Virus record (IMG/VR): IMGVR_UViG_3300009610_000995
Location: 1-20,167 of that record
Origin: a virus
DNA length: 20,167 bases
Direction: 5' to 3' (one strand)
Below, in pieces: positions 728 to 17,637 of the stretch. The notes beneath the pieces are model-generated. The model did no database searches and was not told where the DNA came from. It saw nothing but the letters and a program-made list of their open reading frames with translations. How positions within the stretch are numbered: the first letter of the stretch is position 1; every line of letters begins with the position of its first letter. A program made the position numbers and the translations under genes.

Positions 728-757
728 GAGGCTAGGTAGATATATTTGTTAGGTAGA
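712..757. promoter_or_regulatory. operator cluster, three TCTANNTAGA-like sites
   Basis: Three sites follow each other: TCTAGGTAGA (712-721), GCTAGGTAGA (731-740) and a weaker GTTAGGTAGA (748-757). Their starts are 19 and 17 bases apart. The same arrangement occurs at 1834-1879 and, slightly changed, at 6480-6526. The first site fills the promoter spacer and the second abuts the -35 box. The third overlaps the stop codon of the upstream PAPS-reductase-like gene. The core is a 10-bp imperfect palindrome, as expected for a dimeric repressor. Confidence 0.68.
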
Positions 758-1609
758 GAAGTCGAACTCCATCTGCAAGGAAGTTTCGTACACCTCGCAA
801 CTCTCCGAGCAGGTGCCGCTATCCTCTTCCCGGAACATCCGGCTGGTGTCGCCGGCCTCGCGGAATCCCTGGAGCAGGTCGGCGGTGGACTGAAAGCCGC
901 GGAAGATCTTCCTCGGGCCGGGCACGTAATTCGGACCCACATCCGAGTACAAATCCTCGAGCTTCAGGAAGAAGTCGAAGCGCTCCGGCTCGGTACGGTA
1001 GATGGTGTTGAGCTTGGGCGCAGACTTCTGAAAGCAGGTGACGCAGTTGCCGAGATGCTCGGGGATCTGGAGATCCCAATCGAACTGTTCGAAGAACCAC
1101 AGGACATCCTGTTTGCGGGTGGGCCACCGGTCGACGAGCGGGTAGATGATGCGCTGCGAAGTGGCGTTGGGGGAAACGCGGCGGCGCTCGTCGGCGCGGA
1201 TGCCGATGGCGATCTGGTAGTCCTTGCCCCACAACGAGTCAGTGTAGGAGGCCATCGTATTGCCTTTGAGTTCGCGGGTGCAGAGCTTGAAGACTTTGTT
1301 GGGCAGGCCGTACTTGCCGGCGACTGCTTCGAAGGGTTCGCCGTGGCGGCTGGCGGTTTCATACCGGACCACCTGATGAGTGCAGGATTTGCGGCCGGGG
1401 TTCACGTTTGCTTCCAGCCATACCAGTCCGAGACCCAGATGGCGATCGACGGCATCGGCAAAGCGGAGCGTGTCTTCATGCTCGAGGCCGGTGTTGGCGA
1501 AGGTGAAGGCCATGTTGTACTCGTCGCGGCAGTGCTCCATGAGTTTGAAACACATATAGGCCGAGGTCCGGCCGCCCGAGAACGATACCTGCAGGTTGGG
1601 GCGGCTCAT
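749..1609 (-). CDS. PAPS reductase-like PP-loop enzyme
   Basis: This 286-residue protein belongs to the phosphoadenosine phosphosulfate (PAPS) reductase-like branch of PP-loop (adenine nucleotide alpha hydrolase) enzymes. The N-terminal nucleotide loop is SFSGGRTSAYM (residues 9-19). It is followed by FANTGLEHEDTL (37-48), a CTRELK block (110-115) and a CVTCFQK pair of cysteines (189-195) that could bind metal or take part in thiol chemistry. Phage members of this family are common, but their substrates are mostly unknown, so sulfate reduction should not be assumed; nucleic acid modification is equally possible. The ATG at 1609 follows AGAAGAA, five bases after the stop of the 66-aa gene, so the two form an operon driven from 1821-1849. 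A second, different PAPS-reductase-like protein, containing an intein, lies at 8258-9964. Confidence 0.85.
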   Translation of the reverse strand: MSRPNLQVSFSGGRTSAYMCFKLMEHCRDEYNMAFTFANTGLEHEDTLRFADAVDRHLGLGLVWLEANVNPGRKSCTHQVVRYETASRHGEPFEAVAGKYGLPNKVFKLCTRELKGNTMASYTDSLWGKDYQIAIGIRADERRRVSPNATSQRIIYPLVDRWPTRKQDVLWFFEQFDWDLQIPEHLGNCVTCFQKSAPKLNTIYRTEPERFDFFLKLEDLYSDVGPNYVPGPRKIFRGFQSTADLLQGFREAGDTSRMFREEDSGTCSESCEVYETSLQMEFDFST

Positions 1610-8257: not shown

Positions 8258-9964
8258 TCACTCCCCGGCGATCTTCTCTTCGGCGAACTGGCAGAAGAAC
8301 GAGCAGGAGAAGTTCAGCTCGCCCCCGCGTTTGCCGGGTCCGGGCGGCAATTCGGCGAGGCTCATCCGCTCGCCTTCCCGTGGCCCCGAGCGGTGCTGCA
8401 GGAAGTAGGCGCCTTCGCCGATCTCTTCCTGGATCTTCTTCACCGCGGCAAAGCGTTCCGGGAAATCGGCGCGGATGGCCTGCCAGTAGGACTGGCCGCC
8501 CTTGGGGCAGCCGAGGCAATTGCCGGTGAGGATGTTGCCTTCGAGCGTAAAGGCTTGCCCCTCCGGCACCACCGCGCAGAACACCTCTTCGACCCGCTCG
8601 GTTGGTTCCACCGATACCACGATCCACGGATGCGGCTCGCGCGGGTTCGACCACAGGAAGCGCCGCCGGTGCTCTTCGATGAGAAAGAAATCCTCGCGCA
8701 GGGTGTCTCCGATCAACGAGAGCGAGTAGAGCGCCGACTCCTCGCGCCCGGCAAAGCCGCGCCGCATCACCTTCCGGATGGAGTTGACGCCGATCCCCAA
8801 GCGAATGGCCACGTTCCGCGCGAATTCCACATGCGTGTAGTTAGCCGAGGATAGGGTGTAATCTCCTCGCTCGGACACGCAGCCATCGGCGGCGAAGTAT
8901 CCAGCTAGCCACCCGTATAGGTAGCTCTGGCACTCCTCGAGCGGGGGTAGATCCTTCCAGTGCCTCGGCAGATCCTTCACCTCGATCCCAGCTTGGGAGG
9001 GACGAGTGGGGCTGAGTGGAAAGTAGCGGAGGAGTTCGCGGTCCTTCTCGCCGCACAGGACCACCGTCCCGGCCGTATTCAACGTACTCTGGCGCGAGCC
9101 GTCCCCGAAGACGATCCCTTGGGCAATCCCGAAGGCCGAGGGCCGCACGCGCGCTCCTAGGCGGCCGAACACGCTCCGCAGCCGGTCGCCCGGTCTCAGT
9201 TCCTCGGTAGTGCGCTCGAGTTTGGCCGCGTGCACGTACTGCTTGACGAACCAGCGATGGCCCGCCGTAGCGAAGATGACCTTCTCGGTAGAGTTGCGCC
9301 GAACAGACAGTTTCATCAACGGCTGCTCGCCGAAGGAGTGGATCGAGGCTTCTTCCCACCCGCCCCCGGCTCCCCGCACTCGCACGGTCTCCCCCACGGC
9401 AGCGCCCAGCGTCCGGACCCCCATGTCCGTCAGGAATTCGGTGTCGCCCGAAAAACAATTCGCATTGTCGTAGCCGAGTTCGTACATGATGGGGATGCGG
9501 AGGCCGGCGCGCTCCACGATGGCGAGGCAATCGCCTTTGTCTAAGCCCTCCTCGATCAGCGGCGCCCGGAATGTCTCATCCGGGTAAAGGTCTTGGAGAT
9601 TCGAGAAGCGGTCTTCTTCCTCGCGCGTGAAGCCGAATACCGACACGTCGCCCGGCAACATGATCTTTTTGAGCAGCTTGCGCTTCAGCTCCTGCGAGCA
9701 CGGCGCCCCGTTCGGCCCCTTGATGTAGCGCTTCCTCTTCCACACCTCGTCGGTCGACGCTCCGTAGGTTTCGTCCCGCAGCACCGTCACAGGGTGGCCA
9801 AACCAGGTTTCGCAGTCGGCGAGGAACCGCCGGTTGTCCGGGTGCTCCTCCACGAGGAACGCATTCACGATCACCACGTCATTGTGATCCTGTTCGGCTA
9901 GGATCAGTTTAGTCGCCACCGCCGAGGCCGCGCCGCACGAGAACTGGCATACGTACCTGGACAT
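8258..9964 (-). CDS. PAPS reductase-like protein containing an intein
   Basis: This 568-residue precursor is a phage PAPS-reductase-like PP-loop protein split by an intein. The N-extein (1-169) has the loop QFSCGAASAVATKL (7-20), EEHPDNRRFLADC (39-51), KGPNGAPCSQELK (82-94) and ends GYDNAN. The intein spans C170 to N482. The C-extein (483-568) starts CLGCPKGGQSYW and ends near CSFFC. Splicing would join GYDNAN to CLGC and give a 255-residue enzyme of normal length for the family; the insertion sits exactly at the conserved cysteine pair. Substrate unknown. The ATG at 9964 has AGGTGG about 11 bases upstream and faces a divergent promoter carrying an operator palindrome. Confidence 0.9.
   Translation of the reverse strand: MSRYVCQFSCGAASAVATKLILAEQDHNDVVIVNAFLVEEHPDNRRFLADCETWFGHPVTVLRDETYGASTDEVWKRKRYIKGPNGAPCSQELKRKLLKKIMLPGDVSVFGFTREEEDRFSNLQDLYPDETFRAPLIEEGLDKGDCLAIVERAGLRIPIMYELGYDNANCFSGDTEFLTDMGVRTLGAAVGETVRVRGAGGGWEEASIHSFGEQPLMKLSVRRNSTEKVIFATAGHRWFVKQYVHAAKLERTTEELRPGDRLRSVFGRLGARVRPSAFGIAQGIVFGDGSRQSTLNTAGTVVLCGEKDRELLRYFPLSPTRPSQAGIEVKDLPRHWKDLPPLEECQSYLYGWLAGYFAADGCVSERGDYTLSSANYTHVEFARNVAIRLGIGVNSIRKVMRRGFAGREESALYSLSLIGDTLREDFFLIEEHRRRFLWSNPREPHPWIVVSVEPTERVEEVFCAVVPEGQAFTLEGNILTGNCLGCPKGGQSYWQAIRADFPERFAAVKKIQEEIGEGAYFLQHRSGPREGERMSLAELPPGPGKRGGELNFSCSFFCQFAEEKIAGE
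8519..9457 (-). mobile_element. LAGLIDADG homing-endonuclease intein (313 aa)
   Basis: The intein begins CFSGDTEFLTD (block A, catalytic C170) and has the block B motif ATAGHRWF (TxxH, residues 232-239). Two LAGLIDADG-type motifs follow, IAQGIVFGDGS (280-290) and LYGWLAGYFAADG (349-361). It ends VVPEGQAFTLEGNILTGN followed by the +1 Cys. The terminal Asn (N482) is present but the usual penultimate His is Gly. Splice residues C1, TxxH, N and +1 Cys are all in place, so splicing is plausible. The endonuclease motifs look intact, which suggests it is still able to home. Confidence 0.9.
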
Positions 9965-11189: not shown

Positions 11190-12368
11190 GTGGTCTACTA
11201 CAACGAGATTGACGAAGCCAAAGCCGAGTGGTTAAAGGAACTGATCAAGGAAGGAGTCATTGCCGATGGCCTCGTCGACCGGCGTTCAATTAGAGATGTT
11301 TCCCCTGGAGACCTGGACGGATTCATCCAGTGCCACTTCTTTGCCGGTGTGGGAATCTGGTCCTACGCCCTCACCCTCGCCGGCTGGCCCGCCGATAGAG
11401 CCGTGTGGACCGGCTCCTGCCCCTGCGGACCCTTCTCTTCCGCCGGCAAAAGAGCAGCGCAAAACGATCCAAGGCATCTTTGGCCAGACTTCTTTCGCCT
11501 CATCGAAGCACGAAGACCTGTCTGCGTCCTTGGCGAGCAGGTATCGTCGATTGACGGCCTCGGCTGGCTCGACCTTGTACTCGCTGACCTGGACTCAGCG
11601 GCTTACACCCTCGGGGCACTCGATATCTGCGCAGCGGGCGTCGGCGCTCCCCACATCCGCCAGAGGCTCTATTGGGGCGCGCGGCTGGCCCACGCCCACC
11701 AGCGAGGATGCCAGCCAGTCGAACCGGTCGAACATGGAGGAGCGGATAGCGCGCACAAACTGGAATTCGATCTGCCTCGGGCAAATGGCCCATCTGGCGG
11801 GCTGGAACACGCCGAGGGCGACGGACGGATCGAACGGCGGGCCGAATCAGGCCAACGGGGCCCTGTCGGCGGATGCGGCGATGTGCGGCTGGGCGACTCC
11901 GACGATGCGCGACTCGACCAACGCGGCCAACGCGACATGCTCCCGCTCGAACCCGGACTCGCAGCACCACGACGGCTGGACGCTGATCGACCAATCGAGG
12001 TTGGTGGGCTGGGCCACTCCGAAAGCCTCGGATGGGGACGGCGGCAGGACGACGATGACCAAGGGCGGGGGCAACTCCCATTTACAGATCGAGGCCCGTT
12101 TAACGGCTTCTGGCGAGGGGCCCACTGGGTTCTTACTCGGCCCCAACGGCTGGGAGACGTACCCAGCCTCCGGCCAATTGAACCCAGGCCACTCCCGCTG
12201 GCTGATGGGAATCCCGGCGATCTGGTGCGAGTGCGCCATCCGGGCTTCCCGCTCGCTCAAGGCGAAGAAGCGCGCGTCCTCCGCCTCCGCGGTTACGGGG
12301 ACGCAATTTGCGCCAGTCAGGCCGCCTTCTTCGTGAAAGCTTTCATGGAAGAGTTGGAAGAAGAGTAG
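11190..12368 (+). CDS. C5-cytosine DNA methyltransferase
   Basis: This 392-residue protein is a phage cytosine-C5 DNA methyltransferase. Visible motifs are I (FFAGVG, about 50-55, SAM binding), IV ([12 protein letters not shown], 75-86, with C79 the catalytic cysteine of the PC motif), VI (GEQV, 115-118, the ENV site), VIII (IRQRLYW, 156-162) and a C-terminal motif X-like [14 protein letters not shown]. Residues about 165-330 form a glycine- and arginine-rich stretch that serves as target recognition region and is coded in parallel with another protein in the +1 frame. The GTG start at 11190 lies two bases after the upstream stop. It probably modifies phage DNA against host restriction. Confidence 0.87.
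11266..12336 (+). CDS. protein encoded inside the methyltransferase gene, another frame
   Basis: A 356-residue frame lies wholly inside the methyltransferase gene, shifted by one base. It does not look like a chance frame. It repeats a GWxTPxxxD motif four times ([36 protein letters not shown]) and has [20 protein letters not shown] and the ending [17 protein letters not shown] recall this pattern from proteins annotated in many phages beside or inside cytosine methyltransferases, with no known function. The ATG at 11266 has AAGGAG nine bases upstream, a good ribosome site; an earlier TTG at 11260 is less likely. Serine/proline richness is partly imposed by the overlap. Confidence 0.62.
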
Positions 12369-16125: not shown

Positions 16126-17637
16126 ATGAAGCAGAAAGCTCCCCCGTCCGTCGACCTCAACGAATTAGTATCGTTGTGCGCCACCGACGGGGAGCTGTTC
16201 TGCCGCACCTTCTTCCCCTCCGCCTTCCGCCAGTCCTCGCCCGAATTCCACCGCGACATGTGGGCCGACCTGATTGACCCGGGCGTCAATCTGTCCGCCT
16301 TCTCGGTTTTTCGCGGAGGAGCCAAGACCACCCTGCTCCGCTCCTTCGTGGCCTGGAGTGTCGCCTATCGCGCCTCGCGCACCATCGCCTACCTCGGCGC
16401 CTCGACCGATAAGGCGCACGAGTCCGGTGACTGGCTGCGCCGCTTGATCGAGGGAAACTCCGAGGACGGTCTTTCCTTCGCCCAGGTGTTCGGCCTGCGC
16501 CCCGGCAACGTATGGAACTCCGACCGCCTCGATATCCTCTGCCGCTTCGAAGCCTCGAAACCGGAAACCACCATCACGCTCGTCGCCCTCGGCATCACCT
16601 CCTCGGTGCGCGGCCTCAACATCAATAACTTCCGCCCCGACCTGGTGATCCTCGACGACGTGCAGACCGAGGAGAACGTCGGCAACGAGACCCAGCGCTC
16701 GAAGCTGAACGAACTCGTCTACGCCTCGATCGTCAACACGATGGCGCCGCGCAGTGAAGCGCCCAATCGCAAGATGGTGCTCTCCAATACGCCCATGCGC
16801 CCGCAGGATCTCATCGCCAAGGCCGAGCACAACCCCGACTACAAGTTCCGGAAGTTCGGCATCCGGGACGAGGCGGGACGCAGCCGGTGGGAGGAGCGCT
16901 TCCCCACCGAGGAGATCAACCGGGAAGAAGACGCGGCGCGCCGCGAGAACCAGTGGGCTTACTTCGCGCGCGAGAAGTTATGCTGGCTCGTCCCCGACGA
17001 AGGCCAGTTCTTCCGGCCCTCCGACCTCCGCTTCTATGAAACACCTCCCGCCAATATGGTCACCGCGTATGCGATTGATCCGGTGCCGCCTCCCACGGCC
17101 GCCCAGGTGGCCGGAGGCATGTCGTCGAAGGACTTCGAGGCGCACGTTGTCGTGGGAATGACCGCGAGCCGCGATGTCTACGTGCTCGAGATGTCCACCT
17201 CGCGCTCTCATCACCCCGACTGGTCCGCGAATAAGTTCTTCGAACTCGCCGGGAAGTGGAAACCCATCCGCTGCCGCGTCGAAGGCATCGCCTACCAGGC
17301 CACCTTGAAGTGGTACCTCGACGAGCAGATGAAAAAGCGCGGCCGCTTCCACGTCGTCGAGATCTACAAGGACCAGCGCGCCAAACCCATCCGCATCCGC
17401 CAGTCGCTCGCCGGCCTCGCCTCGAATGGGAAACTCTACGTCCAAAGATCGATGATCGACTGGCTCGCGCAGTGGGAGACCTACCCCGGCTGCGACCACG
17501 ACGATCTGATGGACGCGACGGCGATGGCCGTATCACTCGTGCTTGAACTCGGCGACGGCATGGGCGACTTCGAGGATATAGCCGGCTCCGGTGCCATGAA
17601 ACAACTGGAGTACGCAGGATATAGGCAGTGCCCATGA
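16126..17637 (+). CDS. terminase large subunit (TerL)
   Basis: This 503-residue protein is a phage terminase large subunit, the ATPase-nuclease that packages DNA into the prohead. The ATPase half has a variant Walker A, FRGGAKTT (62-69; Gly-Gly-Ala-Lys in place of the usual G-x-G-K), and Walker B VILDD (174-178). The nuclease half has the RNase H-like acidic residues D318 (YAIDP), E386 (VEG), and the cluster DHDDLMDA (D457-D463). Length and order are usual for the family. The ATG at 16126 lies three bases after the upstream stop. It is followed 10 bases later by a holin-like gene. Confidence 0.92.
   Translation: MKQKAPPSVDLNELVSLCATDGELFCRTFFPSAFRQSSPEFHRDMWADLIDPGVNLSAFSVFRGGAKTTLLRSFVAWSVAYRASRTIAYLGASTDKAHESGDWLRRLIEGNSEDGLSFAQVFGLRPGNVWNSDRLDILCRFEASKPETTITLVALGITSSVRGLNINNFRPDLVILDDVQTEENVGNETQRSKLNELVYASIVNTMAPRSEAPNRKMVLSNTPMRPQDLIAKAEHNPDYKFRKFGIRDEAGRSRWEERFPTEEINREEDAARRENQWAYFAREKLCWLVPDEGQFFRPSDLRFYETPPANMVTAYAIDPVPPPTAAQVAGGMSSKDFEAHVVVGMTASRDVYVLEMSTSRSHHPDWSANKFFELAGKWKPIRCRVEGIAYQATLKWYLDEQMKKRGRFHVVEIYKDQRAKPIRIRQSLAGLASNGKLYVQRSMIDWLAQWETYPGCDHDDLMDATAMAVSLVLELGDGMGDFEDIAGSGAMKQLEYAGYRQCP

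Follow-up and report, generated by a model that had tools for sequence, protein, structure and literature searches.

Among the closest described systems to the locus reported here are the two-polypeptide C5-cytosine DNA methyltransferases M.EcoHK31I and M.EaeI. The locus lies in a 20,167-base virus record (IMG/VR record IMGVR_UViG_3300009610_000995; this whole stretch is called the window), in which a C5-cytosine DNA methyltransferase gene, alpha, contains wholly inside it a second gene, beta, whose reading frame is offset from that of alpha by +1. Lee, Kam and Shaw reportedly described in 1995 that the gene for the larger chain of M.EcoHK31I also encodes the smaller one, in a different frame; the smaller chain of the window is likewise placed. 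Very probably, the overlapping frames of the locus specify the two subunits of a single C5-cytosine DNA methyltransferase similar to M.EcoHK31I, with an exchangeable target-reading array on the nested subunit.

In M.EcoHK31I (target YGGCCR), the larger of the two polypeptides carries motifs I-VIII and X and the smaller carries motif IX, and the predicted recognition domain was assigned to the larger chain (PMC3404938). The same partition was found in the window, with motifs I-VIII and X on alpha and motif IX on beta only. Unlike in M.EcoHK31I (PMC3404938), however, the data here place the recognition region on the smaller chain, and this chain carries several exchangeable modules, in phages. 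The split methyltransferase M.AquI (CYCGRG) looks much like the split relatives described below (loci L290, L301, L302 and L387), but in those relatives the second gene shares DNA with the first, from which it is offset by +1, and bears all of the WPTP array. The window differs from M.AquI in that alpha keeps motif X and contains beta entirely. The multispecific C5 methyltransferases of Bacillus phages (SPR, H2 and others) have tandem recognition domains that address several targets (PMC8936443). They are single chains, whereas the array of the window sits on a separate nested subunit; its units, at ca. 36 residues, exchangeable and never duplicated, compare with the ca. 40-residue recognition units of those enzymes and may read DNA as they do. 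A phage methylase gene with an additional protein in a different frame is also on record, namely that with the hidden HNH endonuclease in the ShiLan domain (PMC11855218), but the gene concerned is another one (gp65) and the endonuclease there is a homing insertion, whereas beta is a conserved part of the enzyme. No earlier report of nested methyltransferase subunits in phages was found in the open-access literature beyond mentions of EcoHK31I.

Alpha falls within the C5-cytosine DNA methyltransferase family, with an expectation value (E) of 4e-10 and 40.1 bits against PF00145 (Pfam cut-off 22) and an E of 4e-63 against PHROG_363. For beta, no Pfam or NCBIfam model scored above its cut-off; it matched PHROG_1008 (E 1.5e-26) and PHROG_31772 (E 7.5e-13), both of which are labelled DNA methyltransferase. 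Neither motif IX nor a target-recognition region was recognisable in the alignment of alpha proteins, i.e. they were not on the same chain as the other motifs. An alternative TTG start at 11260 would make beta 2 residues longer. The features of the locus were as follows:

11190..12368 (+): alpha, putative catalytic subunit of a C5-cytosine DNA methyltransferase; GTG start, 392 residues; matches to PF00145 and PHROG_363
11251..11256 (+): Shine-Dalgarno sequence AAGGAG, 9 nucleotides upstream of the beta ATG, from the sequence
11266..12336 (+): beta, putative nested +1-frame subunit with recognition-type modules and motif IX; ATG start, 356 residues; PHROG_1008/PHROG_31772, conserved open frame, purifying selection, profile match to single-chain methyltransferases
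11337..11357 (+): alpha motif I, FFAGVGI (alpha alignment)
11412..11450 (+): alpha motif IV, with the catalytic Cys (alpha alignment, hhalign)
11529..11549 (+): alpha motif VI, LGEQVSS, the counterpart of ENV (alpha alignment, hhalign)
11584..11643 (+): conserved core of beta, opposite the stretch of alpha that separates motif VI from motif VIII; near-invariant across the 109 beta sequences compared and the best-predicted part of the beta model
11649..11675 (+): alpha motif VIII, PHIRQRLYW (alpha alignment, hhalign)
11686..11802 (+): beta module 1, WPTPTSED... (module analysis)
11803..11889 (+): beta module 2, WNTPRATD..., of family 3, which occurs in 18 loci and also in RcSalem
11890..12009 (+): beta module 3, WATPTMRD..., of a recurrent family also present in L001 and L002
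12010..12177 (+): beta module 4, WATPKASD..., plus the linker to motif IX (module analysis)
12178..12225 (+): beta motif IX, placed by hhalign at motif IX of single-chain methyltransferases; W/L/M/G/P near invariant
12288..12308 (+): alpha motif X, RGYGDAI (alpha alignment); in relatives on alpha or beta, not both

It was confirmed that this one 1.1-kb stretch encodes two proteins in two frames. The window alone makes a moderate case, as 176 of 20,000 synonymous-codon shuffles (0.9%) kept a +1 run this long. Relatives were picked by similarity to the window; they comprised 199 distinct alpha proteins from viral and genome collections plus a few phage records, and yielded 198 usable loci. Related loci are not independent, and the counts that follow are not probabilities. 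Over the span common to the 198 loci, 24 stops were present in the +1 frame versus 626 expected from shuffles, a depletion that held in every class of G+C (GC) content, and the frame was fully open in 179 loci, compared to about 10 expected. In the +2 frame of the same loci, the 2418 stops were slightly above the 2172 expected; composition is thus not the reason for the open +1 frame. Of 197 loci, 57 had a Shine-Dalgarno match of at least 5 nucleotides at the first ATG of beta; among the other out-of-frame ATGs in alpha, 5.6% had one.

Selection was examined in 41 disjoint pairs of related loci by classing substitutions according to their effect (N, nonsynonymous; S, synonymous) in both frames; 32 pairs of flanking genes, analysed in their +1 frame, served as the control. 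Changes that alter beta were depleted: dNN/dNS was 0.54 (0.46-0.63) and dSN/dSS was 0.43 (0.37-0.52), compared to 0.73 (0.58-0.86) and 0.72 (0.54-0.87) in the control; the +2 frame of alpha gave a dNN/dNS of 1.27. Upstream of the beta start, constraint fell on alpha only (dN/dS of 0.13, with 0.95/1.59 for the other frame). Over motifs I-VIII, the values were 0.15 for alpha and 0.53/0.37 for beta; in the IX/X region, both were constrained (0.21 and 0.32/0.24). In the module region, alpha rose to 0.80 while beta was at 0.51/0.41, and alpha is therefore near-unconstrained exactly where beta has its modules. As judged from these substitutions, beta is under purifying selection. A chance open frame was rejected by the synonymous-codon shuffles and the substitution tests.

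Part of what an earlier note on this DNA had claimed is borne out by these data. It had placed two proteins in one stretch, with a 356-residue frame inside the methyltransferase gene; both frames are open, and 11190-12368 are the coordinates of the outer gene. The ribosome site that it ascribed to the inner frame is present (AAGGAG, 9 nucleotides before the ATG at 11266), its four repeats were located at 11686, 11803, 11890 and 12010 and its conserved C-terminal motif from 12178, and the repeats do coincide with a low-complexity region of the outer protein. Neither of the two observations that it had named as speaking against it was made: stops in the +1 frame of homologues were strongly depleted (24 versus 626 expected over the 198 loci), and constraint, the absence of which would have counted against it, was present in two frames in the substitutions of the 41 pairs.

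The part played by beta was read from relatives of other architecture. A one-frame form of the enzyme is represented by gp70 of Mycobacterium phage ShiLan and its relatives in viral contigs (actinophage methyltransferases). The order in this single chain is motifs I-VIII, several LPTPxxxD modules, LxPAFSEWMMGWPAGW and RIIGNG; PF00145 was matched by all 15 aligned members, and the predicted model of one of them aligned to M.HhaI with a Z of 22 over residues 1-380 (Foldseek E of 2.6e-13). Because the nested-beta profile aligned to the single-chain set across the modules and motif IX (hhalign, E of 5.9e-8), and the alpha profile covered motif IV to VIII only (hhalign, E of 3e-18), beta is best read, on these profile alignments, as the part of a C5 methyltransferase that comprises the recognition region and motif IX.

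Split loci were found by a search of viral contigs for NPxWVEWLMG, followed by the relatives of three odd cases. In these, alpha is only ca. 165-315 residues long and stops past motif VIII; from there the +1 frame continues alone with the modules, IX and X; the C-terminus of split beta matched the single-chain set across IX and X with an E of 4e-13. Motif X was on alpha only in 38 of 73 classified loci, on beta only in 20, and on both in none; the remaining loci comprised 4 with a beta motif X but no recognised alpha in that frame, 1 joined frame, and 10 without a recognised motif X. Some split pairs have been annotated as two DNA methylases, e.g. gp7/gp6 of Mycobacterium phage Dylan. In the split relative L387:2488-3592, the beta ATG is located a few bases past the alpha ATG (MNELALF / MSWLYS), i.e. 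the starts are near-simultaneous. On the reverse strand of L366, a single chain with motifs I-VIII continues into LNPDWVEWLMGYP and RLMALGNS, and a +1 frame of 177 codons with LPTP/FPTP modules ends before motif IX; this locus is possibly an intermediate between the one-chain and two-frame forms. A single open frame links methyltransferase motif I/IV to a beta frame with modules and IX in both L418:2216-3229 and L375:4036-5112, and these joined frames may be either natural fusions or sequencing frameshifts.

Modules were counted with the conserved TPSGR core excluded. Beta proteins carried up to 14 modules, mostly 1-4, with a median length of 36 residues. The 559 modules were grouped into 82 recurrent families and 141 singletons, and 181 distinct module orders were observed among 194 beta proteins; the 33 copies of module family 1 alone were found in 32 neighbour contexts. 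The same family never occurred twice in one protein, although 10.8 (6-17) such cases were expected by random draw. Module families were common to nested, split and single-chain proteins. Shared modules in L464 (split, 76% identity) and L482 (single chain, 70%) each had two stops in the would-be alpha frame, and the stops per module in the alpha (-1) frame were 0.13 for nested, 1.49 for split and 1.30 for single-chain proteins. It is the beta frame that carries the function. In L002:2904-4956, an alpha of 681 residues and a beta with 14 counted modules are both open throughout, an exceptionally long dual-coded stretch. The W-P-T-P start of the modules recalls, as a resemblance only, the 'TL' motif P(S/T/C/A)PT(I/L/V) of recognition domains (PMC2413257).

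In the proposed enzyme, alpha would bind S-adenosylmethionine and carry the catalytic cysteine (motifs I-VIII) as well as motif X. Beta would be initiated within alpha, from a ribosome site of its own, and would add four target-recognition-type modules of ca. 36 residues together with motif IX, by which single-chain enzymes pack their recognition domain onto the core. The two chains would assemble into an active enzyme that methylates the phage DNA, probably at several target sequences with one specificity per module. Methylation would protect the phage from host restriction; the usual role of phage orphan methyltransferases is anti-restriction. Modules are gained, lost and swapped between phages, and alpha would read the module DNA as a near-unconstrained linker that needs only to stay open. 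The proposal is directly supported by the two constrained frames, the partition of the motifs, the homology that links motif IX and the modules of beta to single-chain enzymes, and the shuffling of modules.

Some observations weigh against it. Motif VI of alpha is EQV in the window, not ENV, and alpha has a conserved C-terminal stretch of its own before motif X (e.g. DGKWRPVEPGTFPLA in most relatives); it may have an unusual motif IX of its own. The AlphaFold model of beta alone was poor (predicted local distance difference test 62, predicted template-modelling score 0.30), and the modules were of low confidence even in the single-chain model; given this low confidence in both models, a recognition fold for the modules is unsupported. 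Searches of the beta profile against solved structures returned no methyltransferase and weak unrelated matches only. Finally, the dN/dS estimator is a simple one and is biased below 1 (0.73 in the control), yet the beta values were lower than those of the control.

Among the alternatives, the one that survives best is a variant of the two-subunit enzyme and does not exclude it: alpha and beta would form the methyltransferase, but a single module (e.g. that nearest IX) would read DNA, the others serving as spacers or protein-interaction repeats. The number of modules, which varies between 1 and 14 and has no evident ceiling, would suit this arrangement, as would the low-confidence modules in the models. 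The modules, however, are diverse and fall into discrete recurrent families that occur in many neighbour contexts and are not repeated within a protein, as distinct specificities predict, and phage methyltransferases in which several recognition domains stand in tandem have been described (PMC8936443). A single reader is thus considered doubtful, albeit with an appreciable chance of being correct.

It is improbable that alpha alone is a complete methyltransferase and that beta, a real protein, has a separate job, e.g. as a regulator or as a factor that counters restriction or other defences. Accessory factors are frequent products of nested overprinted genes, and most of the motifs, together with the conserved C-terminus before motif X, are on alpha. 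Nevertheless, the modules and motif IX of beta align to single-chain methyltransferases in the correct order, motif X shifts between alpha and beta, and the would-be recognition region of alpha is near-neutral (dN/dS of 0.80) and is absent in split relatives. Very little probability is accorded to ribosomal frameshifting that would yield an alpha-beta fusion with beta as its tail: in L418 and L375 a single open frame does run from the N-terminal part of alpha into the beta frame, but these joins may be sequencing errors, and beta has a start and a ribosome site of its own, upstream of the catalytic motifs of alpha. That the +1 frame is an untranslated by-product of GC content and alpha codon use is barely credible, for although long spurious frames are frequent in high-GC phage DNA and 0.9% of the window-only shuffles reached the run length, the +1 stops are depleted over the 198 loci (24 versus 626) in every GC class, constraint acts in two frames, ribosome sites stand at beta starts, and split and single-chain relatives read the same sequence without alpha overlap.

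Of 50,697 phage records, 154 contain beta, among them epsilon15, BcepC6B and numerous phages of Rhodobacter and Klebsiella; it also occurs in chromosomal contigs of many bacteria. The arrangement is present in hundreds of phages and prophages and is rarely annotated. In most of the listed records a single gene is annotated; the exceptions are Xanthomonas phages PhiXhv-5 and PhiXhv-28 and Escherichia phage K1G (ORF30), in which the nested frame is annotated as an Mte8-like protein or a DNA methyltransferase; these annotations give neither a function past the label nor a link from one frame to the other. The K1G frame (L551:1589-2281, 'putative Mte8-like protein') is a nested beta with a single module, and its size is close to what we take to be that of the EcoHK31I small subunit. 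In Mycobacterium phage Babsiella (L553), a small gene (gp55, 1139-1447) is annotated inside a large methyltransferase gene (gp54, 601-2448). The overlap, which the earlier note had called rare, is what most of the relatives in this collection have. Nor does the methyltransferase keep all catalytic motifs, as that note had it, motif IX being unrecognisable in alpha and located on beta instead; and the inner protein, described there as functionally unknown, matches the recognition region and motif IX of single-chain methyltransferases.

Elsewhere in the window, a terminase large subunit gene lies downstream of the alpha/beta pair (16126-17637, +; PHROG_38, E of 8e-66). Two genes of the phosphoadenosine-phosphosulfate-reductase family were noted at 749-1609 (-) and 8258-9964 (-) (PHROG_424, E of 9e-50 and 5e-43, respectively), the second with a long additional C-terminal part. 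No partner restriction enzyme turned up among the neighbouring genes in a PHROG scan, which was not a search aimed at restriction enzymes.

Beyond the two-subunit enzyme of the window, it is reasonably likely that these loci represent a large, mostly unannotated class of heterodimeric, multispecific phage methyltransferases, with swappable cassettes in the beta frame and a permissive linker in alpha, in which each swap has to be tolerated in both frames simultaneously and single-chain, split and nested forms coexist. If so, a function would be given to a protein family that is labelled only generally (PHROG_1008, PHROG_31772) or missed by databases, and a full-length sense-sense overlap would be maintained across hundreds of phages and prophages. 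The manner in which overlapping frames share an enzyme becomes testable, with alpha varying exactly where beta is constrained. The 82 recurrent families would constitute a ready natural set of recognition cassettes, and their specificities could be determined by sequencing methylomes. Half of the enzyme would be missed by gene callers that do not allow one gene within another. The arrangement would also offer a reason why the targets of phage methyltransferases may change quickly.
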